64,000 bases of DNA from an uncultured Coriobacteriaceae bacterium. Lineage in GTDB: Bacteria > Actinomycetota > Coriobacteriia > Coriobacteriales > Eggerthellaceae. Under the pieces are notes generated by a model. It saw only the letters and a program-made list of their open reading frames with translations. It ran no database searches and was not told the DNA's origin. Positions 17,597 to 59,489 of the stretch are shown in pieces. Both the position numbers and the translations under genes were made by a program. How positions within the stretch are numbered: position 1 is the first letter of the stretch; each line of letters opens with the position of its first letter. The stretch is from NCBI GenBank assembly GCA_902768975.1, contig CACXMZ010000005.1:186001-250000 (forward strand). Reading direction: 5' to 3'.

Positions 17597-19606
17597 ATGG
17601 CACGTTCGTCTAACAACAAAGGGAGAAATACCCGCTCTGCTTCATCAAACTCGAAGCAGCAGCGCGCGCATAAGGGCCAACAACGCGCGGCTCTCGCCAA
17701 AGAAAAGGCAGGCCAGGCTGCCACGGGTATTCTGGGGTCCCTTATCGACCTCATTCGTTCTTCACGCGCAGCCTTGCTCATTAGCATTGTTTTAGCACTG
17801 GTGCTCTTCGGCGGTCTGTTCGACTTTGTTGCCAATTTCGGAAAAGCTTATTCGGGCGTGACCGTGGGCGGCCTTGACATTAGCGGCCTTAAAGCCGAAC
17901 AGGTTGAAGAAGTCGTGGGGAAGGAATATGCGGGACGCCTTAACAGTGCCGGCGTTTCCATCTATGCGAACCAGGACGCTTTCAATGACCGTATTTCGGA
18001 GTATGAATATATAGACAGCGAAGAAATTTCAGCCGAAGAAGAACGTGCTGCTCGTCGAGCATGGTCTACCGATGCCGCGTCTTTGCAGGCCTATATCGAC
18101 TACGAAAAACTCACGAAGGAAGCAATGGAAGTGGGGCGCGAAAACCCCCTCGATCGCTTTACCCTCTTTTTTCAACCACGCGACATTAGCATTCCCCTTA
18201 ACTTTAATGAAGCCATCATTGAATCCTTGGCTCATGAAATAGACCTCAGCATTGGTGAGCCCCTCGTTAATTATGGGGTGGAAATCGTTGACGGCTATGT
18301 AGCGGTAAGCGAAGGCAGAGACGGTGACATGGTTAACCGTGAAGTCCTTAAGCAGCAAATTACCGAACAGCTTCTTTCGCCCGACGCCGACAACCGTGCC
18401 TTTGTTGTTGAAACCGAATTTACCCCTGTGCAGATTACCCAACAAGCTGCCCAGGCCTGCGCCGACCATATTTCCCGCGTGATTTCGAACGGCATTGTCT
18501 TTTCCTGCGAAGGGCGCGACTGGACGGCCGACTCGGCAACACTTGGCTCGTGGATACAAACGCCTTTGTCTCGAAACGAAGACGGGACGTATTACCTTGC
18601 CCCTAGTTTCGCGCTACAGACCGCGCGCTCAAGTGTGCTTTCGCATATTCCGCCCAACTATGAAGGCGGGGAAGGGCATGTTCGCTTTGTTAAAAATGGG
18701 GACGATATATATGTCCATGCCACTTCGAACGGAACATTCCCCTTGGTAGGCGACGCACTCGAAGAACTCAATATCAATCTCTTCGGTTCAAAGTCTGGAA
18801 ATACAGAAAATAGCATTGGGCCAGACCAAACCCTTCGTGTTGAACTAGGCTCCGCTGAAATACCCGCCGAAATGACGCTCGAAGAAGCCTTATCTTTCGG
18901 CATTGTTACCCCTATTTCTGAATTTGAAACTGAATATACCTCGGGTGCATTTGAACGTAATACCAATATTCATCTTGCCGCCGACTTGCTCAATAATTCG
19001 ATTGTTCCTGCCGACGGTGGTATCTGGAGCTTTAACAAGACTGCAGGCGAATGCAACGCGGAAAAGGGCTTCCTCGAAGCCCATGCCATTGCGGGCAACA
19101 CCCTCATCGACGAAATTGGTGGTGGCATTTGCCAGGTAGCGACCACCGTATTTAATGCGGTCTATGAAGCTGGCTACCCCATAGTTGAGCGCCATAACCA
19201 TAGCATCTATTTCTCGAGTTACCCTCAGGGCCGTGACGCAGCGGTAAGCTGGCCCGACCTTGACCTTAAATGGGAAAACAATTCACCTTCAGACATTCTT
19301 GTAAAAATGAGCTATACCGACACCACGGTTAAAGCGGTTTTGTACGGTGAAACCATGGGCTATACCGTTGAGTCTGAAGAAGGCGAAATACAACCCGGTG
19401 CTGCCTTTACGACTGTCTACGAAACCGACGACACCTTATACCCTGGTACAGAGTATGTACGCACCTATGGCTACGACGGCCACACTGTCACGGTTACGCG
19501 TAATGTATACGACTCAAAGGGCGACATCGTCAGTACCGACCAATTTACTTCAGCCTATTCGCCCCAAAATACCATTGTTGTCCGTGGTCCATCTTCGAGT
19601 TCCTAG
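17597..19606 (+). CDS. VanW family membrane-anchored cell-wall protein
   Basis: A 669-residue envelope protein. A basic N-terminus of about 55 residues precedes one membrane anchor (about 58-82), after which the chain is extracellular. There are repeated putative peptidoglycan-binding modules (SGVTVGGLDISGLKAEQ type). The VanW domain then shows FNKTAGECNAEKGFLEA, EIGGGICQVATTVFNA and ERHNHSIYFSSYPQGRDAAV, and a C-terminal G5-like beta domain ends the protein. VanW is named from vancomycin-resistance clusters but its biochemical activity is unknown, so resistance should not be assumed. The ATG follows the pgsA stop codon directly; dacA begins 12 bases later. Confidence 0.85.
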   Translation: MARSSNNKGRNTRSASSNSKQQRAHKGQQRAALAKEKAGQAATGILGSLIDLIRSSRAALLISIVLALVLFGGLFDFVANFGKAYSGVTVGGLDISGLKAEQVEEVVGKEYAGRLNSAGVSIYANQDAFNDRISEYEYIDSEEISAEEERAARRAWSTDAASLQAYIDYEKLTKEAMEVGRENPLDRFTLFFQPRDISIPLNFNEAIIESLAHEIDLSIGEPLVNYGVEIVDGYVAVSEGRDGDMVNREVLKQQITEQLLSPDADNRAFVVETEFTPVQITQQAAQACADHISRVISNGIVFSCEGRDWTADSATLGSWIQTPLSRNEDGTYYLAPSFALQTARSSVLSHIPPNYEGGEGHVRFVKNGDDIYVHATSNGTFPLVGDALEELNINLFGSKSGNTENSIGPDQTLRVELGSAEIPAEMTLEEALSFGIVTPISEFETEYTSGAFERNTNIHLAADLLNNSIVPADGGIWSFNKTAGECNAEKGFLEAHAIAGNTLIDEIGGGICQVATTVFNAVYEAGYPIVERHNHSIYFSSYPQGRDAAVSWPDLDLKWENNSPSDILVKMSYTDTTVKAVLYGETMGYTVESEEGEIQPGAAFTTVYETDDTLYPGTEYVRTYGYDGHTVTVTRNVYDSKGDIVSTDQFTSAYSPQNTIVVRGPSSSS

Positions 19607-21466: not shown

Positions 21467-23212
21467 ATGGAATTATTGTCTGGCAATGAAGCCATTGCCC
21501 AGGGTGCCTGGGAAGCAGGTTGCGGCATTGGCGTAGGGTACCCGGGAACTCCGAGCACGGAAACGCTTGAAGCTTTTGCCAAAAAAGAAGCCGTCTACGC
21601 CGAATGGTGCCCTAATGAAAAGGTGGCCCTCGAAGTTGGGGTAGGGGCAAGCGCTGCTGGAAGCCGCGTCCTTGCTACCATGAAGCATGTTGGGGTAAAC
21701 GTTGCTGCCGATCCACTCTTTACCGCGGCTTATACCGGCGTAAACGGAGGCTTAGTTTTGCTTGCCGCCGACGACCCTGGTATGCACTCAAGTCAGAATG
21801 AACAGGACTCGCGCTATTATGCGCTCGCGGCTCATGTGCCGGTATTCGACCCGTCAGATTCCCAGGAAGCCCACGACTTTACGAAGGCTGCCTATGCCTT
21901 GTCTGAAGAATTCGACACGCCATTTATGATTCGTTCGACGGTTCGCATCAGTCATGCAAAGACCCCTGTCAACACGGGTGAGAAGGAAAACTATCAGCCC
22001 AAGGTCTATGAAAAGGACCCCACTAAATGGGTGATGATGCCTGCCTATGCCAAACTGCGGAGAGTCGAACTCGACAAGCGCGACGCCGCTTTGTCTTCCT
22101 GGGTTGAAGAGTGCCCCTTTAACATTATTGAGCAGCGCGAAACAAGCAAGGGCTTCATTTGCAGTGGCGCCGTCTACCAATATGTACGCGACGCTTTTCC
22201 GGAAGCTTCGGTATTAAAACTGGGTGTGACCTGGCCTCTTCCGAAGCAGAAACTGGAAAGCTTTGCAAATATGGTCGAAGACGTTTATTGCATCGATGAA
22301 GCATCGCAATACTTAAGCAGCCAGATCTTGGCACTTGGTATTGAGCTTTCCCAGACACCGCATCCACTTCCAGCGGCAGGGGAGCTTTCCTCCCGTGCCC
22401 TCCGACTAGCTTTTGACGATACCGAGGCCACCACAGAACCAGAAGCCAAGCTGCCAGCACGTCCACCAGCGCTTTGTGCGGGTTGCCCGCATCGTTTGGT
22501 CTTTAAGGAACTCGCACGTGCCAAGTGCATTATTACGGGCGACATTGGCTGCTACACCTTAGGGGCCCTGCCGCCCCTTGCCGCCATGGACACCACAGTC
22601 TGCATGGGCGCTTCGATTTCCATGGCCCATGGCTTTGAACTTTCGTATGGCGAAAGTGAACATGCCCCCGTTGTTGCCGTTATAGGGGACTCCACTTTTG
22701 CCCATTCAGGGATCACCAGTTTGCTCAATACCGTGTATAACCAAGGCGTTGGCACGGTATGCATTCTAGACAACCGCACAACGGGTATGACAGGCCACCA
22801 GGGCAACCCCGTAAATGGCAAAACCTTACAAGGGCGGCAAACGCGTGAATTGAATCTTGAGGAACTCGTTAAGGCGCTTGGCGTTGAAGATGTAGCCACG
22901 GTTAATCCTAACGACATGAAGGCAACGCGCCAGGCAATCAAGCAAGCCCTAGAAGCAAAGGACAGGCTTTCTGTTATCGTCTTTAGAAGCCCCTGTGTGC
23001 TCCTGCGTGACTCTTTTGTTGCCCAGGCACCCTATTACGTAAACGGCAACTGCACAGCCTGCGGTTCCTGCATTTCCCTTGGTTGTCCTGCCATAGAAAA
23101 GAACCCTGCCGACGGCACGGCTTCTATTGAAGCAAGCATGTGCGTAGGCTGCGGGCAATGTAGCCAATACTGTGCCTTCGAAGCCATTACTCAAAGCGAA
23201 GGGGGGCGGTAA
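21467..23212 (+). CDS. iorA: Indolepyruvate ferredoxin oxidoreductase, alpha subunit
   Basis: A 581-residue thiamine-diphosphate enzyme that oxidatively decarboxylates aryl pyruvates from aromatic amino acids to aryl-acetyl-CoA while reducing ferredoxin. The pyrimidine-binding half starts ELLSGNEAIAQGAWEAG. The TPP-binding half contains CAGCPHRLV, GDIGCYTLG and GDSTFAHSG followed by DNRTTGMTGHQ. The C-terminus carries two cluster motifs, CTACGSCISLGCPAI and CVGCGQCSQYCAFEAI, the first with an odd spacing before its last Cys as usual for IorA. iorB follows after 2 bases. Confidence 0.93.
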   Translation: MELLSGNEAIAQGAWEAGCGIGVGYPGTPSTETLEAFAKKEAVYAEWCPNEKVALEVGVGASAAGSRVLATMKHVGVNVAADPLFTAAYTGVNGGLVLLAADDPGMHSSQNEQDSRYYALAAHVPVFDPSDSQEAHDFTKAAYALSEEFDTPFMIRSTVRISHAKTPVNTGEKENYQPKVYEKDPTKWVMMPAYAKLRRVELDKRDAALSSWVEECPFNIIEQRETSKGFICSGAVYQYVRDAFPEASVLKLGVTWPLPKQKLESFANMVEDVYCIDEASQYLSSQILALGIELSQTPHPLPAAGELSSRALRLAFDDTEATTEPEAKLPARPPALCAGCPHRLVFKELARAKCIITGDIGCYTLGALPPLAAMDTTVCMGASISMAHGFELSYGESEHAPVVAVIGDSTFAHSGITSLLNTVYNQGVGTVCILDNRTTGMTGHQGNPVNGKTLQGRQTRELNLEELVKALGVEDVATVNPNDMKATRQAIKQALEAKDRLSVIVFRSPCVLLRDSFVAQAPYYVNGNCTACGSCISLGCPAIEKNPADGTASIEASMCVGCGQCSQYCAFEAITQSEGGR

Positions 23213-26828: not shown

Positions 26829-28514
26829 ATGGACTATCGCAATTCCGCCCAAGAGTGGCTCGAACAATGCAATGACGCTGAGCTCAAAGAACAGCTAGCG
26901 GCCTTGCTTGAAACAGGTACCGAAGAAGAAATCGCTGACGCCTTTTTTCAGGACCTCAGCTTTGGAACAGCGGGGCTTCGCGGTGTTATTGGACCGGGCA
27001 CGAACCGCATGAATGTATATACCGTTGGTCGCGCTACCCAAGGCTTAGCCGACTACATAAATGCTACGTGCACCAATAGCCCTGCTCGGGTTGCTATCGC
27101 GCGTGACAGCAGAAACAAGGGCAAAGTCTTTGTAAAAGTAGCTGCCAGCGTGTTGGCTGCCAACGGAATTGAAAGCTATCTATACCCGCGCATTGAACCC
27201 GTTCCTGCGCTGAGCTTTGCCGTGCGCGACTTGGGCTGCTTTGCGGGTATTTGCATGACGGCAAGCCACAACCCGGCTTCGTATAATGGCTATAAGGTCT
27301 ACGGGGCAGACGGATGTCAAATTACGTCTGAAGCGGCGGCGTCTATATCTGCTTCCATTGCCAATATTGACCCGTTTACCCAGGTCAAAACCATGAATTT
27401 CGAAGAAGCCGAAGAGAGTGGCCTCATTAAATGGATAGGGGAGGAAACCCTCGATCGCTTTGTTAATGCGGTATGCCAGTGCGGGCTTGAACTCCCCGAA
27501 GCACAAGACGAAGCACTTTCATTGGTCTATACGCCCTTATGTGGGTCCGGTCTTGAGTGCATGCAGCGAATCTTTGATTTCGCTCATATTAAAGAGCTAA
27601 GCTTGGTCGAACAACAAGTGCAACCCGACGGTAATTTCCCGAGCTGCGAATACCCAAACCCCGAAGAGCGTTCAGCTCTTGAAGTGGGTTTGCAGGTCTG
27701 TAAGGAGAGGGGAGCAGACCTTCTTATGGCCACCGACCCCGACGCTGACCGTCTTGGCATTGCCGTTGCCCATGAAGGCGACTACGTGCTACCAACGGGT
27801 AATGAAGTGGGCATTTTGCTTTTCGACTATCTGTGCAAAATGCATACGCAACTTGGCACCATGCCGAGCAATGCCTTGGCCATTTCAACCATAGTGTCGA
27901 CTGCCATGATAGACGCGATTGCCGCCACATACGGTGTCGAAATTCGCCGTACGCTTACTGGCTTTAAGTACATAGGCGACATCATTACTGAACTTGAACG
28001 CAATGGGGAAGAGAAGCGCTTTATTCTTGGTTTTGAAGAAAGCTACGGCTACCTAACGGGCGCCCATGTGCGCGACAAGGACGCCATCAATGCGGGCTTG
28101 CTCGTGTGCCAAATGGCGCGCTACTACAAAAGCCAGGGCAAAGACTTAATTGAAGCGCTCAACGAACTGTATGAACGCTATGGCTATTATGTCAACCGCA
28201 CGGTCAATATTGCATTCCCTGGTGCTGAAGGCGCTCAGTCTATGGCTTCAATTATGACAGCGCTACATGAAAACCCGCCAGCTGAACTTGCGGGCATACC
28301 TATTACGGAAGTTGTTGACTACCAGGATGGGGTCGGCAGCCTGCCAAGCGCTAACGTGGTAGAGCTGCGCATTGCAGAAGGTACAAAGATTATCTTTAGG
28401 CCAAGTGGCACCGAGCCTAAGATGAAACTGTATCTTTTTGCAAAAGCGCCCAGTGCAAGCGAAGCGCAACACTTGCTTGATACGCTTGAAGAAGCGGCAC
28501 GAAAGCTCACCTAA
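26829..28514 (+). CDS. pgm: Phosphoglucomutase / phosphomannomutase
   Basis: A 561-residue alpha-D-phosphohexomutase of the long PgcA type. It has FGTAGLRGVIGPGTNRMN at the N-terminus, the phosphoserine loop GICMTASHNPASYNG, the metal loop ATDPDADRLGIAV, the sugar loop LGFEESYGYL, and the phosphate-binding C-terminal IFRPSGTEPKMKLY. It converts hexose 6-phosphate to 1-phosphate. The exact sugar preference is not decidable. A GAAGG ribosome site lies inside the end of galE. Confidence 0.93.
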   Translation: MDYRNSAQEWLEQCNDAELKEQLAALLETGTEEEIADAFFQDLSFGTAGLRGVIGPGTNRMNVYTVGRATQGLADYINATCTNSPARVAIARDSRNKGKVFVKVAASVLAANGIESYLYPRIEPVPALSFAVRDLGCFAGICMTASHNPASYNGYKVYGADGCQITSEAAASISASIANIDPFTQVKTMNFEEAEESGLIKWIGEETLDRFVNAVCQCGLELPEAQDEALSLVYTPLCGSGLECMQRIFDFAHIKELSLVEQQVQPDGNFPSCEYPNPEERSALEVGLQVCKERGADLLMATDPDADRLGIAVAHEGDYVLPTGNEVGILLFDYLCKMHTQLGTMPSNALAISTIVSTAMIDAIAATYGVEIRRTLTGFKYIGDIITELERNGEEKRFILGFEESYGYLTGAHVRDKDAINAGLLVCQMARYYKSQGKDLIEALNELYERYGYYVNRTVNIAFPGAEGAQSMASIMTALHENPPAELAGIPITEVVDYQDGVGSLPSANVVELRIAEGTKIIFRPSGTEPKMKLYLFAKAPSASEAQHLLDTLEEAARKLT

Positions 28515-28521
28515 TTTCCCT

Positions 28522-29310
28522 ATGGGCGACCGCATTACACAAGAGGGGATTCGCGGCCTTCTACCCGAGGCCCACAAAGCAAGGCTTTGTATTGAGGTGC
28601 TCGAAAGCATTGTAAGCACCAACGACTATCTAAAGCAGACGGAACCTGTAAAAGAATGTACCTACCGCGTCGTTATTGCCGAAGAACAAACCGGTGGCAA
28701 AGGAAGGCGTGGCAAGCAGTTTCTTTCACCACGCGAGTGCGGCATCTATCTGAGCATACAATTTCAGATCCAAGATGCTGGTGCGTCATACGCCCAGGAG
28801 TTAACGGCCCTTTCAGCTATTGCGGCATGTCGTGCCATAGAAACGCATACCAATAAGCAGCCTTTAATAAAATGGCCCAATGACGTATATTGCGACGGGA
28901 AAAAGGTATGCGGCATCCTGTGCGAAAGCCAAATCGAAGCATATTCGGGTAAACCGAGTTCTTTTATTGCCGGTATAGGCATCGACGTGTATAAACCAGG
29001 AATTAGCCAAATAGCCGCTGAAAGCATAGGCTACCTTGCCGAAGCAGAAGAACAAGGCCTCAGAAATAGGCTCATTGCGTCTTTAATTGAGCAACTTATA
29101 GCATTGCAAATAGAAGGGACCGAGGGCGCGAGGGAAGAATACCGAAAGCGCTCAATGCTTCTTGGACGAGACATTGTCCTGCAATACGACGATTCGCGCT
29201 GCATTCAGGCATATGTTGAAGACATCAACGACCAACTACAGCTTCTCGTGAAAAATACAGATGGTTCCCACGATGTACTTGACATGGGAAACTTCAGTAT
29301 TAGCTTCTGA
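28522..29310 (+). CDS. birA: Biotin-[acetyl-CoA-carboxylase] ligase
   Basis: A 262-residue enzyme that activates biotin with ATP and attaches it to carboxylase carrier proteins. SIVSTNDYL, GGKGRRGKQFLSP (the biotinyl-AMP loop) and IKWPNDVYCDGKKVCGIL with the catalytic lysine are all present, followed by a small C-terminal SH3-like domain. There is no N-terminal helix-turn-helix, so it is the monofunctional (non-repressor) type. The frame is open upstream into pgm, but ATG 28522, 8 bases after the pgm stop, gives the usual length. It is the last plus-strand gene before the strand switch. Confidence 0.9.
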   Translation: MGDRITQEGIRGLLPEAHKARLCIEVLESIVSTNDYLKQTEPVKECTYRVVIAEEQTGGKGRRGKQFLSPRECGIYLSIQFQIQDAGASYAQELTALSAIAACRAIETHTNKQPLIKWPNDVYCDGKKVCGILCESQIEAYSGKPSSFIAGIGIDVYKPGISQIAAESIGYLAEAEEQGLRNRLIASLIEQLIALQIEGTEGAREEYRKRSMLLGRDIVLQYDDSRCIQAYVEDINDQLQLLVKNTDGSHDVLDMGNFSISF

Positions 29311-29358
29311 CCTGCACTTTCAATGGGTGAGTATATGCACTGTGTAATCTCACTATTT

Positions 29359-29386
29359 AGTTAACATAACATATATTATCAAGATT
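29359..29386 (-). other. dif: Probable dif site (XerC/XerD recombination site)
   Basis: Read on the minus strand, this 28-bp site has a left half AATCTTGATAA, a 6-base centre TATATG and a right half TTATGTTAACT. The right half is near-identical to XerD-binding arms of known dif sites (TTATGTTAAAT in proteobacteria, TTATGTAAACT in Bacillus, TTATGTCAACT in Streptomyces). The left half ends in the typical GATAA. It lies in the 130-bp gap where the plus-strand gene arm (ending birA) meets the minus-strand arm (ending dut), as expected for a replication terminus. Confidence 0.78.
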
Positions 29387-29408
29387 TATTCTATTGAAGA
29401 TCAAAATA

Positions 29409-29433
29409 AGAGAGGGCTCGTAAAAGCCCCCTC
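29409..29433. terminator. Probable bidirectional terminator between birA and dut
   Basis: AGAGGGCT and AGCCCCCTCT form an imperfect hairpin, with A-rich sequence on its left; read from the minus strand this gives a T-rich tail after dut. Confidence 0.5.
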
Positions 29434-29440
29434 TGAAACC

Positions 29441-29887
29441 CTACTGTACGCCGCTGCTTCCAAAGCCCCCAGCACCGCGTGACGTTTCTGAAAGCTCGTT
29501 AACTTCAAGCAGCTTAACTTGTTCAACTTTCATTATGACAAGCTGCGCGATACGGTCGCCAGCTTTTATTTCAATGGGTACCTGGGCGTCCAGGTTAATA
29601 CAAATACAGCCTAATTCGCCGCGATAGCCACTATCTATAAGCCCGGGTGCATTTACTAAGGACAAACCCTGTTTAATGGCTGAACCGCTTCTTGGTAATA
29701 CAAAACCCGCGTAGCCTTCAGGAATTGCTACGGCAAGCCCCGTAGGCACCAATGCCCGCTCAAATGGCTGCAGCGTAACATCTACCAAAGAACGCAAGTC
29801 TATGCCCGCGTCACCTTCATAGGCAGATTCAGGAATAACTGCTTCACTATTGAGCTTCTTTACGGGTAATTCCAAAAAATCGAACAT
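29441..29887 (-). CDS. dut: dUTP diphosphatase
   Basis: A 148-residue trimeric dUTPase that hydrolyses dUTP to dUMP, keeping uracil out of DNA and feeding thymidylate synthesis. All five family motifs are visible, including AYEGDAGIDLRS, PRSGSAIKQGL, NAPGLIDSGYRGELG, GDRIAQLVIMKV and the C-terminal P-loop-like RGAGGFGSSG. It lies 4 bases after nrdR, so the two nucleotide-metabolism genes probably form one transcript. Confidence 0.95.
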   Translation of the reverse strand: MFDFLELPVKKLNSEAVIPESAYEGDAGIDLRSLVDVTLQPFERALVPTGLAVAIPEGYAGFVLPRSGSAIKQGLSLVNAPGLIDSGYRGELGCICINLDAQVPIEIKAGDRIAQLVIMKVEQVKLLEVNELSETSRGAGGFGSSGVQ

Positions 29888-29891
29888 TTGT

Positions 29892-30335
29892 TTAGAGACC
29901 TTTCAAGGCGCTCGCAAACTCTTCTACCGTCTTAAAGTCCTTGTATACGCTGGCAAAACGAATATATGCCACGTCGTCAAGGTCCTTCAGGCGCTTTAAG
30001 ACCATGTCGCCCAAGTCCTTAGACTTGATTTCAGAAACGTTGGCATTGCGCAATTCCGACTCCATGCTGTCGACCAGACCATTAATCTGTTCAGGAGAAA
30101 TATGGCGCTTTGCGCAGGCGATATACACCCCACGTATAATTTTTTCACGGTCATAAACTTCAGATGTACCGTCGGTCTTTAAAACAATGAGCGGGTTTTC
30201 ACCGAGACGTTCATAAGTCGTAAAACGACGGCCGCAATCGAGGCATTCACGACGACGGCGAATGGTTGAACCGTCTTCAGAAGGACGAGAGTCTACTACT
30301 TTAGATTCGGTTTGACCGCATGATGGACAGCGCAT
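29892..30335 (-). CDS. nrdR: Transcriptional repressor NrdR
   Basis: A 147-residue regulator of ribonucleotide reductase genes. The N-terminal zinc ribbon is MRCPSCGQTESKVVDSR followed by CLDCGRRFTTYER. The rest is an ATP-cone nucleotide-binding domain (LIVLKTDGTSEVYDREKI). GGAGG lies 7 bases before the ATG at 30335. A palindrome resembling an NrdR box lies 40 bases upstream, which would allow autoregulation. No nrd genes are in the window. Confidence 0.95.
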   Translation of the reverse strand: MRCPSCGQTESKVVDSRPSEDGSTIRRRRECLDCGRRFTTYERLGENPLIVLKTDGTSEVYDREKIIRGVYIACAKRHISPEQINGLVDSMESELRNANVSEIKSKDLGDMVLKRLKDLDDVAYIRFASVYKDFKTVEEFASALKGL

Positions 30336-30407: not shown

Positions 30408-30440
30408 GCACCCTGCCCTAGCGGTTGTAGGACAGGGTGC
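30408..30440. terminator. Hairpin after the SOS membrane-protein gene
   Basis: GCACCCTG-c-CCTA pairs with TAGG-a-CAGGGTGC across a 7-base loop, 26 bases beyond the stop of the small membrane gene. There is no strong T-run on the minus side, so termination may be partial. Confidence 0.5.
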
Positions 30441-32863: not shown

Positions 32864-33804
32864 GCTTTAGCCCCTTCGATAATTTCAAGCGATGCCTGGC
32901 AGAGCGCTTCAAGATTAAAGTCGGTCGCGTCGAGCCAATGAATTCGCTGGTCTTTTCTAAACCAAGTCCGCTGGCGTTTGCCGTAGCGGCGCGTCGCAAG
33001 CTTTACGGCATCGACTGCTTCTGCAAGCGAAGTTTCTCCGTCCAAATAAGCCACGAATTCCTTATAGCCAATCGCTTGTTGTGACGTAATAGCATCCCTC
33101 ATGCCCTGGGCAAGCAAAGACTCAACCTCGTTAAGAAGACCTGCTTCCATCATGGCATCAACACGTGCGTTTATGCGAGCAGCTAGCACCTCTGGTTCAA
33201 CCTGCAGCCCAATCTGAATAGAAGGATAATATGCTTCGATTTCAGCAAATTGCTCCTTCTGTTCGGCATAGCTCAAGCCTTCCTCGTGAATTTCAAGCGC
33301 TCGAATAACGCGCTTAGAGTCGGCAATGGGAATGACTTGGGCAGACGCAGGATCCACGCTATTAAGCGCGTCCCATACCGCCTGGGGCCCACTACTACGA
33401 AGCAAGGCCGCGTAGTAGTCCCGTATGGGGTTTCCGACCTGTTCACCTGCAGGAAAAACAAAGTCATCGATAACTGCCCGCACATAAAAACCTGTGCCCC
33501 CACACAGAAGCGTGCGCTCCCCTTCCCTGTCGCGCGATTCGATAATGGGGCGCGCATAAGCCTGAAAGAGCGAAGCCGAAAAAGCTTCGCCCGGGTCAAC
33601 AACATCGAGCCCATAATAAGAAACGCTTCGTTCACTTGCGGGTATCTTGCCCGTGCCGATGTCCATTCCCCGGTAGACCTGCATGGAGTCGGCGCTCATA
33701 ATGGCAGCGGGAAGTTTTTCTGCGATGGCCTGGGCAAGGGCGGTTTTTCCGCTGGCCGTGGGGCCCACTACGCAAATGAGAGGCTGTTTAAGTTCAACGG
33801 ACAC
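32860..33804 (-). CDS. miaA: tRNA dimethylallyltransferase
   Basis: A 314-residue enzyme that adds a dimethylallyl group to A37 of tRNAs reading UNN codons, the substrate for MiaB encoded just upstream. GPTASGKTALAQAIA is the P-loop; SADSMQVYRGMDIGTGK and the FYVRAVIDD region are family motifs; KLATRRYGKRQRTWFR near the C-terminus binds tRNA. It starts with GTG, overlapping the miaB stop codon (TAGTG). Confidence 0.95.
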   Translation of the reverse strand: MSVELKQPLICVVGPTASGKTALAQAIAEKLPAAIMSADSMQVYRGMDIGTGKIPASERSVSYYGLDVVDPGEAFSASLFQAYARPIIESRDREGERTLLCGGTGFYVRAVIDDFVFPAGEQVGNPIRDYYAALLRSSGPQAVWDALNSVDPASAQVIPIADSKRVIRALEIHEEGLSYAEQKEQFAEIEAYYPSIQIGLQVEPEVLAARINARVDAMMEAGLLNEVESLLAQGMRDAITSQQAIGYKEFVAYLDGETSLAEAVDAVKLATRRYGKRQRTWFRKDQRIHWLDATDFNLEALCQASLEIIEGAKA

Positions 33805-38526: not shown

Positions 38527-39039
38527 TTATTCTAGGATAAGGCCTGAACCTTTGAATGTGTCAGACCATTTTCTGCAGGCCCGGGATGCAATTCCTACCG
38601 AATAACCCTTAGAAATGAGCTTGCGATAGGCTGCTGCGTAAGCGTCCTTGGCCTTAGGGGGGTGGTTGATAAGGTATTCATAGGCCCGCTCTTCCTGAGA
38701 TTCTTCGTCGAGCCCATAGCTTTCAGGCCACCCTTCAAGCGCTGATGGGTCCAGGCCGTGCTTTTCAAGGTCACGCGTAAGGCCATAGAGCCCCTTCCCC
38801 GCGGTAACCTTACCGCGCACAAAGGATTCAAGGAAGCGCGTGTCGTCCACCAGGGCACAGTCAATTGAGCGTTGGATAGCTTCTTCGATCTGTTCCTGTG
38901 TGTAGCCGTCTGTGATAAGACGGTCGAAGAGTTCTTTGCTTGAACGGTCCGGCTTGCGTTCCTTCGCGCGTTTACGCTTTCCCTGTGTACGTGAGCCCTC
39001 TGGCGAGGGCTCACAACTTGTACCAAAACTCATGCGCAT
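38527..39039 (-). CDS. recX: Regulatory protein RecX
   Basis: A 170-residue modulator of RecA filaments built of three-helix repeats: LFDRLITDGYTQEQIEEAI, LESFVRGKVTAGKGLYGLTRDLEKHG and AAAYRKLISKGYSVGIASRACRKW. It starts 42 bases after recA, its usual partner. The N-terminal 25 residues are basic and unconserved. Between recX and rny lies a 200-bp A+T-rich gap without a gene. Confidence 0.88.
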   Translation of the reverse strand: MRMSFGTSCEPSPEGSRTQGKRKRAKERKPDRSSKELFDRLITDGYTQEQIEEAIQRSIDCALVDDTRFLESFVRGKVTAGKGLYGLTRDLEKHGLDPSALEGWPESYGLDEESQEERAYEYLINHPPKAKDAYAAAYRKLISKGYSVGIASRACRKWSDTFKGSGLILE

Positions 39040-44604: not shown

Positions 44605-46974
44605 CTACTCTCCTAAGCTTTCATCACTTGCTTCAAATGCTTTGAGGCTTTCCAGTTCAAGGGCGTCTACTAGGACCTCGCGCGGCTTGCTGCCGTTAGG
44701 GGGCCCCACAATGCCCTTTTCTTCAAGCATGTCCATTATACGCCCTGCTCGTGAATATCCTACGCTCAAGCGGCGCTGGATGTTTGAAGTAGAACCAAGG
44801 CCAGAATTGACCACGATTTCGGCCGCTTCCCACAAAAGCGGGTCGTCGGGGCCGCCGGAACCACCACCGTCGCCCATTTGGCCAATGGTGATAAGGTTTG
44901 TGTTCAGGATTTCATTGTGATATTCAGGTTCACCCTGCGACTTGAGGTGCTCAACTACCGAAGCAATTTCGTCGGGCGATGTGAAGCAACCCTGCAAACG
45001 CACCGGCTTGGGGTATTCGGGCTTTGAGTAGAGCATGTCGCCATTACCAATGAGGCTTTCGGCACCCGTCTGGTCCAGAATAACGCGGCTGTCAATGCCA
45101 CTAGCCACGTTAAGAGCAATACGGCAGGTAATATTTGCCTTGATAAGACCGGTAACTACATTTGTAGATGGGCGCTGGGTAGCAATAATCATATGGATAC
45201 CTGCAGCGCGAGCCAGCTGGGCCAAACGTGAAATAGACGCCTCGACTTCCTTCCCCACATTCATCATGAGGTCGGCCAGTTCGTCGATAACAATAACGAT
45301 ATAAGGCAGCTGTTCGGCGGGTTCGTCGCCAATAAGCATGCCGTCCTGGGCCTTCTTATTGTACTGGCTGATATTGCGTGCTCCCACACTAGCAAAGGTC
45401 TTCAGACGGCTTTCCATTTCGGCCACCGCCCAGGCAAGGGCACTCGCCGCTTCCTTACATTCCGTTACCACAGGAACATAGAGGTGCGGGATACCGTTAT
45501 AGGGCGTGAACTCAACGCGCTTCGGGTCAATCATAATGAAGCGCACTTCAGCGGGCGTTGCCCGCATAAGAATAGACATAATCATGCCGTTAATGGCAAC
45601 CGACTTACCAGAACCGGTCGTACCGCCCACAAGCAGGTGCGGCATCTTGGAAAGATCGTCGATGACATAATTGCCTTCAACGTCTTCGCCCACTACCATC
45701 TGGAGCGGACCGCCCTTGATACCCTTCAAAATGTCGCCGAGTAAAACGGTCTGGCGCTTCACATTGGGCACTTCAATACCCACGTATTTCGTGCCAGGAA
45801 CAGGGCTAAAAATACGCACACCCGGTGCCGCGAGTGCACGGGCAATGTCGTCGGTAAGACCGGTAATCTTGGCCACGCGTACGCCCGAAGGCAGGTCGAC
45901 CTTAAACAAGGTAACGGTGGGGCCCGCCACCCAGTCAACCACGCGCGCATCTATGCCAAAGTCAGACAGGGTCTCTTCGAGTTCAAAGGCCGTGCTGCGC
46001 AAAATGTCGTCGCCTTCACGGTTTTTCTTGCCACCTGCATTGGTTTGAAGCAAGTCCATCTTAGGCAGCACAAAGTCCTTGGTTGGCTTTGGCGTGACCA
46101 CGGCCTTTTCAGGCTTGGGCGCATTAAGCGCAATGGTTTCGGCTTCAGAAGCGTCCTTCTTCTTGGGCGAACGAAGCTTGCGCGTCATGGCTTCAGACTT
46201 GGGCTTCCCTTCGTCTTCAAGGGCGATGGTATTCAATTCAGACTCGTCAAGCTCATTCAAGAGCTCCAGGCGGCTGCGAGCAGGCGCGGGGCGCGGCAAG
46301 TCGATTTTGGGCATTTCTGCCTGCCAGGAACCATCGAAGAGTTCGTCGCGCTTTTGGAGGAGCTTTTCGATGAGACCCCTGAACGAAAAACCAATAATAA
46401 GCAGGGCCACCAGTATGAGGCCGACCACAAGCACGGTACTCACCACCTGGCCCATGAGCAAAAGCAGGACCCAGGCAATCGCCGCACCAATATAGCCACC
46501 CTGGTTCACCAAATTGGCACGCGAAAAGAGTGGTTCAAGGGTTTGCTGCTGAACCCCTGGAGTGTAAAGCGCATACAGGACCAAGACCGCAAGGAAAAGC
46601 AGCAAAAGCCCTACTGCCACACGAACAGGTACTTCCTGCCCGTCTGGTTTCGCAAAAAAGGTTGCAGAAATCAGAATCATAACAAAGGGCAGTATGAAGG
46701 CGCCTTTGCCCAGCCCTACATGAATAATGTTTGAAAGCCAGGTGGTCAAAATACCACTGGGCGACATAATGGCAATGATAAAAAGCACAACGGCAATAAC
46801 GGCGCAAATCACGCCCCAAATGTCGCGACGAACACGGTCGTCAACCAGATGCGCACGGGCAGCACCTTGCCCACCAGAACCAAGCTGGCGGGCAGCTTGC
46901 TTTTCGGAAGGTGCTTGAGCTTTACGTTTGGTGGTTTGCTTTTTGTCTGCGCTCGACTCTTTTTTGCGAGGCAC
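44605..46974 (-). CDS. ftsK: DNA translocase FtsK/SpoIIIE
   Basis: A 789-residue septal DNA pump that moves chromosome ends to daughter cells and, in many bacteria, activates XerCD at dif. There are four membrane spans in the first 180 residues and a variable linker. The motor domain contains the Walker A GGTTGSGKSVAING and VIVIDELADLMM. A C-terminal gamma winged helix (RRLSVGYSRAGRIMDMLEEKGIV) reads polar DNA sequences. With a likely dif site 15 kb away, the pairing is biologically coherent. It is of normal length for the short Gram-positive type. Confidence 0.96.
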   Translation of the reverse strand: MPRKKESSADKKQTTKRKAQAPSEKQAARQLGSGGQGAARAHLVDDRVRRDIWGVICAVIAVVLFIIAIMSPSGILTTWLSNIIHVGLGKGAFILPFVMILISATFFAKPDGQEVPVRVAVGLLLLFLAVLVLYALYTPGVQQQTLEPLFSRANLVNQGGYIGAAIAWVLLLLMGQVVSTVLVVGLILVALLIIGFSFRGLIEKLLQKRDELFDGSWQAEMPKIDLPRPAPARSRLELLNELDESELNTIALEDEGKPKSEAMTRKLRSPKKKDASEAETIALNAPKPEKAVVTPKPTKDFVLPKMDLLQTNAGGKKNREGDDILRSTAFELEETLSDFGIDARVVDWVAGPTVTLFKVDLPSGVRVAKITGLTDDIARALAAPGVRIFSPVPGTKYVGIEVPNVKRQTVLLGDILKGIKGGPLQMVVGEDVEGNYVIDDLSKMPHLLVGGTTGSGKSVAINGMIMSILMRATPAEVRFIMIDPKRVEFTPYNGIPHLYVPVVTECKEAASALAWAVAEMESRLKTFASVGARNISQYNKKAQDGMLIGDEPAEQLPYIVIVIDELADLMMNVGKEVEASISRLAQLARAAGIHMIIATQRPSTNVVTGLIKANITCRIALNVASGIDSRVILDQTGAESLIGNGDMLYSKPEYPKPVRLQGCFTSPDEIASVVEHLKSQGEPEYHNEILNTNLITIGQMGDGGGSGGPDDPLLWEAAEIVVNSGLGSTSNIQRRLSVGYSRAGRIMDMLEEKGIVGPPNGSKPREVLVDALELESLKAFEASDESLGE

Positions 46975-58646: not shown

Positions 58647-59489
58647 ATGAACCAGAAACCACAACACGCTTCCCGTTCCCCTAAAGGAATCGACCCAGCT
58701 GCACTCTTAGTGGCACTCATTCTCCTCTGCGGAGTCGGAGGTATTGCCGTAGGCTCTTACGTAAAGTCTCATGCCGCTTCCCCAGGGGCCGAAACTTCCG
58801 CCCTCTTAAGTACTTCATCAAGTGTTTCGGGCCAGGGCACTGGGGAAAACACCAATACGGCCACAAGCGAATCTGTTTCAAGTACCGACACATGCACCGC
58901 TGGTAGTTCGAGCGCAGCTGAACCTGCCGAAGAGCTTCCCCCCTTCGACGCAAAGGCATACTTCGCCGAAAAGCACACGGGCGAAAATGGTCAAGACATC
59001 CACGAGCCTCTGCTTATTGGCGACAGCGTTGCCGCAGGTGCTACCGATGCCTTTTACGAATTCTTCCCCTATGGCCTAGTAGACGCCGTGGTGTCTCGCA
59101 ATATCTGGGAAAGCCCCTACCCGACCTATCGCGATGAAGGGACGGCCGGCAAGGTTATTATCTTTTGTCTGGGCACCAACAATGCGGTTGTGGACTGGCA
59201 GATCGACGACGAACTTCTGAATTCGGTTGAAGACGACAAAGTGGTTTTCTTTGTAAATACGCGCTGCACGGAAGAATGGGTCGACTCAACGAACCACGAA
59301 CTGGCTGCCGCGGTTGAGCGCCACCCCAACTTGGTTGGCGTCATCGACTGGTATGGCTATTCAGAAGGCCACGACGAATGGTTCGCCGGCGACGGCACTC
59401 ATCTCACTGAAGAAGGCGCCCGCATTTACATGGGCTATATCTACGACAACGTTACCGCCTACTTAGACAAGCATCCTTTGTCGCAGTGA
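58647..59489 (+). CDS. Membrane-anchored SGNH/GDSL-type hydrolase
   Basis: A 280-residue extracytoplasmic protein. An N-terminal hydrophobic segment (about 18-38, LLVALILLCGVGGIAVGSYV) acts as signal anchor. A Ser/Thr-rich linker leads to the SGNH domain from about residue 122: LLIGDSVAAGATDAF (nucleophile Ser), FCLGTNNAVVDW (block III Gly/Asn) and GDGTHLTEEGARIY (catalytic Asp-His). This layout resembles the acetyl-transferring C-terminal domain of OatA-type O-acetyltransferases without the membrane acyltransferase part. Esterase or O-acyltransferase are both possible. It is the only plus-strand gene between 55.7 kb and the window end. Confidence 0.83.
   Translation: MNQKPQHASRSPKGIDPAALLVALILLCGVGGIAVGSYVKSHAASPGAETSALLSTSSSVSGQGTGENTNTATSESVSSTDTCTAGSSSAAEPAEELPPFDAKAYFAEKHTGENGQDIHEPLLIGDSVAAGATDAFYEFFPYGLVDAVVSRNIWESPYPTYRDEGTAGKVIIFCLGTNNAVVDWQIDDELLNSVEDDKVVFFVNTRCTEEWVDSTNHELAAAVERHPNLVGVIDWYGYSEGHDEWFAGDGTHLTEEGARIYMGYIYDNVTAYLDKHPLSQ

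Follow-up and report, generated by a model that had tools for sequence, protein, structure and literature searches.

A putative chromosomal dif site with converging KOPS-type octamers in a Coriobacteriia genome

Described dif systems and the site on contig C5

The main text of Kono et al. 2011 reports a predicted dif for all 66 Actinobacteria genomes examined, and the four Coriobacteriia genus names for which we searched this main text are absent from it (PMC3025954). The Actinobacteria dif sites of that study resemble the site described here in their 11-6-11 layout, their GATAAT and TTATGT cores and their single copy near the terminus, and differ from it in the centre and in the outer ends of the arms; the Frankia alni seed sequence has 17 of 28 bases in common with it (PMC3025954). 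The Escherichia coli system involves the same recombinase pair, the same FtsK gamma domain and the same octamer, GGGNAGGG, as we find here (PMC5357621), whereas the guide form of Bacillus subtilis is GAGAAGGG. When compared base by base with the sequences that we take to be the E. coli and B. subtilis dif sites, the present site shares 19 of 28 bases with the former (10 of 11 in the XerD arm and only 5 of 11 in the XerC arm) and 20 of 28 with the latter (again 10 of 11 in the XerD arm), in which CodV and RipX correspond to XerC and XerD. We therefore regard this dif as a further case of a site type that is already known.

The stretch of DNA analyzed here, referred to as the window, comprises 64,000 nucleotides and corresponds to positions 186001-250000 of contig C5 in a 1.89-Mb draft genome of 10 contigs that is approximately 96% complete. 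The initial annotation had proposed a 28-bp site composed of a XerD-type arm, a 6-base centre and a XerC-type arm, and this site is present on the minus strand, within a gap at 29311-29440 bounded by convergent genes for a biotin-protein ligase and a dUTPase (Table 1). Its two 11-bp arms are partly inverted around the 6-bp centre, and the XerD arm is conserved.

Table 1. Coordinates of dif, its neighbouring features, ftsK and the KOPS-type octamers, numbered from the first position of the window
Feature	Position	Strand	Remarks
dif site, 28 bp	29359..29386	-	AATCTTGATAA TATATG TTATGTTAACT (XerC arm, centre, XerD arm)
XerD-type arm TTATGTTAACT	29359..29369	-	10/11 identical to the E. coli and B. 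subtilis dif arm
Central region TATATG, 6 bp	29370..29375	-	
XerC-type arm AATCTTGATAA	29376..29386	-	inner GATAA invariant across relatives; outer five bases vary
Biotin-protein ligase gene, birA type	28438..29310	+	Pfam BPL_LplA_LipB; true start possibly further in; flanks dif
Hairpin beside dif	29409..29434		fold -13.9 kcal/mol, z -3.2
dUTPase gene, dut	29441..29887	-	Pfam dUTPase; adjacency and orientation to dif conserved in relatives
nrdR gene	29892..30335	-	Pfam Zn_ribbon_NrdR and ATP-cone; member of the conserved nrdR-dut-dif neighbourhood
ftsK, full length	44605..46974	-	Pfam FtsK_4TM, alpha, SpoIIIE, gamma; 15 kb from dif
KOPS-type octamer GGGAAGGG	18669..18676	+	points to dif
KOPS-type octamer GGGTAGGG	21639..21646	+	points to dif
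KOPS-type octamer GGGCAGGG	30411..30418	-	points to dif
KOPS-type octamer GGGAAGGG	33520..33527	-	points to dif
KOPS-type octamer GGGAAGGG	38792..38799	-	points to dif
KOPS-type octamer GGGTAGGG	59115..59122	-	points to dif

A pattern search of the 1.89-Mb genome returned one exact copy of the 24-nt core of dif. The next-nearest sequence, which is the sole match within three mismatches, lies on contig C8 and departs from the core at three positions that affect both arms. In addition, a 28-position profile built from the sites of 22 relatives, with the present genome excluded from the build, recovered the site in the window at an E-value of 1.1e-6 and yielded no second match at E<=10 in the 1.89-Mb genome. 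The single copy anticipated by the initial annotation was thus confirmed by the pattern search, and the profile scan revealed neither a rival nor a better site. A plasmid-borne origin was also considered and was rejected, as a plasmid collection contained no similar DNA.

Orientation switch, guide octamers and recombination proteins

Cumulative coding orientation along the 362 kb of contig C5 peaks at position 215309, 50 bp from the start of dif at 215359. A simple ORF-based recount, restricted to frames of at least 100 aa, assigned 21 of 24 genes to the plus strand on the left of dif and 27 of 30 to the minus strand on the right. These values are nearly equal to the 22 of 26 and 29 of 33 obtained earlier, and the proposed location of dif exactly at the gene-orientation switch holds across the whole contig.

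GC skew on C5 is weak, with positive values left of dif and negative values right of it. The earlier expectation of a skew extreme at dif was only partly upheld: the sign changes across the region, but the cumulative maximum is found at 157689, 58 kb to the left of the site. The local skew maximum of two relatives is likewise off dif, by 61 kb in G034 and 30 kb in G035, and accepted dif sites of Legionella are located between 89 bp and 79 kb away from the skew turn (PMC9765430). Because the skew is weak, is displaced in both relatives and has this precedent in Legionella, we did not take the 58-kb displacement as a refutation (PMC9765430). As a weak marker that is displaced both here and in the two relatives, GC skew was set aside as the arbiter of the terminus; AT skew and third-position skew on C5 were uninformative.

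In the present genome, dnaA and dif are located on separate contigs, C2 and C5, and the antipodal position of dif was therefore read from relatives assembled as a single contig, in which the distance from dnaA to dif amounts to 46% (G034), 54% (G035) and 51% (G008) of the circle. The coding-orientation peak, the converging octamers described below and the location of the relatives' dif opposite dnaA support the earlier proposal that the window spans the replication terminus. Contig C2 also carries six perfect parS sequences (TGTTTCACGTGAAACA) at C2:227383-228480, five of them within 250 bp, at 4-5 kb from dnaA. The minima of GC skew and coding orientation fall around 157 kb of C2, approximately 76 kb from dnaA, which means that the skew is offset not only from dif but also from the origin.

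All six GGGNAGGG octamers within the window are directed at dif, and the inward-pointing arrangement from both sides that had been predicted for FtsK-orienting octamers extends along C5, where plus and minus copies number 20:1 left of dif and 5:18 right of it. In lagging-strand genes, which run against the trend, the count is 12:0 in favor of dif; since all 12 still aim at the site, the polarity is not explained by gene direction. The related word GGGGARG behaves similarly (56:5 on the left, 9:41 on the right, and 26 of 26 toward dif in against-trend genes), with its switch located between 214.0 and 217.0 kb of C5 and dif at 215.4 kb. GGGNAGGG is also polarized in G034 (19:3 and 7:22) and G035 (9:2 and 2:15), and in both genomes it switches within approximately 4 kb of dif; in G034, coding orientation and GC skew, unlike GGGNAGGG, do not switch so close to the site. 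A ranking of the 11,442 xxxNxxxx patterns that occur at least 8 times in each of three genomes, uncorrected for gene direction, places GGGNAGGG first by minimum z over the three.

Two other candidate guide words were rejected: GAAGAAG, which is strongly skewed but tracks gene direction (46 vs 49 in lagging-strand genes), and the B. subtilis form GAGAAGGG, which is unpolarized on C5 (3 vs 5). On contig C2, the dnaA contig, we looked for polarity of GGGNAGGG or a flip at the origin and saw none, and in this respect the present genome, with polarity around dif and none on the origin contig, differs from E. coli. This result is in line with a rise in KOPS density towards dif (review, PMC5357621), yet it also limits our claim of an E. 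coli-type KOPS polarity.

As for the proteins, a XerD gene at C5:87232 scores above the NCBIfam cut-off, and a XerC-like gene at C5:159374 has XerC as its best match at a score below the cut-off (295 vs 335 bits). Tyrosine-recombinase motifs are conserved in both products, and a third Xer-like recombinase gene is located at C10:19734. The full-length FtsK encoded in the window has membrane, motor and gamma domains, and its gamma domain matches PDB entries 2j5o and 2ve8/2ve9, the last of which we take to be the KOPS-bound structure of FtsK-gamma.

A second FtsK-related gene was observed on contig C2. This gene (C2:171506-173830, plus strand; loci L137 and L212:1506-3833) encodes a 775-aa protein that combines the alpha, motor and gamma domains of FtsK with the ATPase domain of DnaA. 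The Walker A motif of its FtsK motor is altered to GGPGSGTG, whereas the DnaA part retains GPPSCGKTH and has a changed Walker B. Its FtsK part is approximately 48-51% identical to the host FtsK, and its gamma domain appears intact. No second FtsK-DnaA fusion was present among the matches listed for 301 genomes of the order, and no mention of the term was found in the open papers searched. The fusion lies in an island of re-joined replication-protein pieces (C2:162861-175074, plus strand; loci L211 and L212), which encodes a 417-aa fusion of a DnaA N-terminal domain with a DnaB helicase domain, a 159-aa DnaA ATPase fragment that stands alone and a short DnaB-like protein. The island also encodes RtcB, an FtsH-like AAA-peptidase that is soluble, and a PD-(D/E)XK protein assigned to a candidate defence family. 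Downstream of the island are BrxP/SspB-like genes, and for the 199-aa ORF at its start a comparison with 300 other genomes of the order gave no relative. We consider it unlikely that this rebuilt second FtsK also reads the dif/KOPS system. If it does bind the same octamers, an initiator-derived domain would be linked with the guide sequences of the terminus, perhaps as a decoy in a defence-like island.

dif-type sites and filamentous elements in related genomes

The same profile detected a dif-type site in 91 of the 97 family genomes with good coverage, representing all 42 genera and, for the most part, once per genome. In the 22 relatives, columns T18-T23 (TTATGT) and A25 of the XerD arm are invariant, as are most of AA.T and the GATAA of the XerC arm. 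Within the genus, TGATAATAYATGTTATGTTAACT plus one or two bases forms a conserved block, and the surrounding gap diverges.

The neighbourhood of the site is conserved as well. Both nrdR and dut adjoin dif within the genus, and in a number of the family's other genera dut lies no more than approximately 1.5 kb from dif, with constant orientation. Among 80 dUTPase loci retrieved by name, 27 have a dif-type site on their piece of sequence, every one of them in the same orientation, and a reversed control pattern gave zero matches across these 80 loci. The named relatives of the neighbouring dUTPase come from Olsenella, Thermophilibacter, Slackia, Ellagibacter and other Coriobacteriia. In G017, G120, G129, G133 and G009 (loci L214-L216 for three of them), another dif-type site is present at a large distance from the first; these sites could possibly represent further Xer-using elements or secondary replicons.

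In one relative, G114, an element is integrated at the site. This genome has two dif-type sites separated by 6.2 kb, with genes for Zot/pI-type assembly and G2P-type replication proteins between them, and homology of the right flank to G115 restarts exactly at the second site. The flanks are continuous over one empty dif in G115 and G037, and G116 also has a single dif. Based on sequence comparison, and with XacF1 as the comparison case for Xer-dependent integration of a filamentous phage (PMC5666396), this arrangement looks like an integration of that kind, and of all the observations made here the insertion comes closest to a functional indication that the site of this family is a Xer substrate. 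The inovirus-like element itself (L213:6675-12860, approximately 6.2 kb), located exactly at the host dif, also encodes a restriction-alleviation protein. Zot- and Rep-type genes related to those of G114 were observed on a 5103-bp contig of G146 (C29, the whole contig; L240) together with one perfect dif-type site; its open frames run off both ends, which suggests a circular phage form with its own attachment site.

Interpretation and significance

The comparisons presented above make it nearly certain that the 28-bp site is the chromosomal dif, a putative XerCD dimer resolution site, which belongs to the class Coriobacteriia and probably to the Eggerthellaceae. Three other readings were weighed. 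The conserved stretch might be nothing more than a terminator of transcription or a regulatory palindrome of another kind, as the gap separates convergent genes and contains a genuine hairpin, the probable shared terminator of both. The hairpin, however, adjoins the 28 bp and lies outside rather than inside them, and the 28 bp are conserved despite differing neighbour genes and gap lengths; moreover, the letters of the XerD arm are common to E. coli and B. subtilis and the stretch occurs once per genome, which makes such a signal highly improbable. Likewise, the family harbors Xer-using filamentous elements with dif-like sites, and contig C10 carries a third Xer-like recombinase gene, both of which would suit an attachment scar or a dif-like site of a Xer-using phage or plasmid instead of the host dif. 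We assign this reading only a minute probability, given that no element flanks the site here, that the order nrdR-dut-dif is kept across genera in one orientation, and that the profile search left the genome without any other candidate host dif.

The displaced GC-skew maximum could also be expected if the orientation switch were the breakpoint of a recent inversion and not the replication terminus. Against this, the KOPS-type octamers reverse at this point also in against-trend genes, with a like reversal at dif in two other genera, and dif lies opposite dnaA in the single-contig relatives; a breakpoint is accordingly very unlikely.

If the site is the chromosomal dif, its operation can be proposed by analogy with E. 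coli and other models, from which the assignment of arms to proteins, the order of cleavage and the activation by FtsK are inferred. Recombination would fuse sister chromosomes into a dimer that needs resolution. FtsK at the closing septum would then load on KOPS octamers, whose orientation would steer it towards the terminus, and would bring two copies of dif together, with its gamma domain activating XerD on TTATGTTAACT. Cutting and exchange of strands around the 6-bp centre, by XerD first and XerC second, would split the dimer.

In the open papers searched, we found no statement on GGGNAGGG polarity in Coriobacteriia or on filamentous phages at Coriobacteriia dif. The additions made here are modest and comprise an E. 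coli-like KOPS polarity in the class, the conservation of dut beside dif, and a filamentous prophage inserted at dif in one relative. The presence of the E. coli octamer far from the Proteobacteria, with differing words in the firmicutes, supports a GGGNAGGG code that is either old or repeatedly favoured.

For this organism, dif fixes the chromosome terminus to the base. For the Coriobacteriia, which include Eggerthella, Slackia, Olsenella and their kin, common gut bacteria, the analysis offers a dif profile that covers the family, dut next to dif as a conserved landmark, and GGGNAGGG as a usable prediction of the guide octamer. The site also explains the insertion point of filamentous phages in the family.
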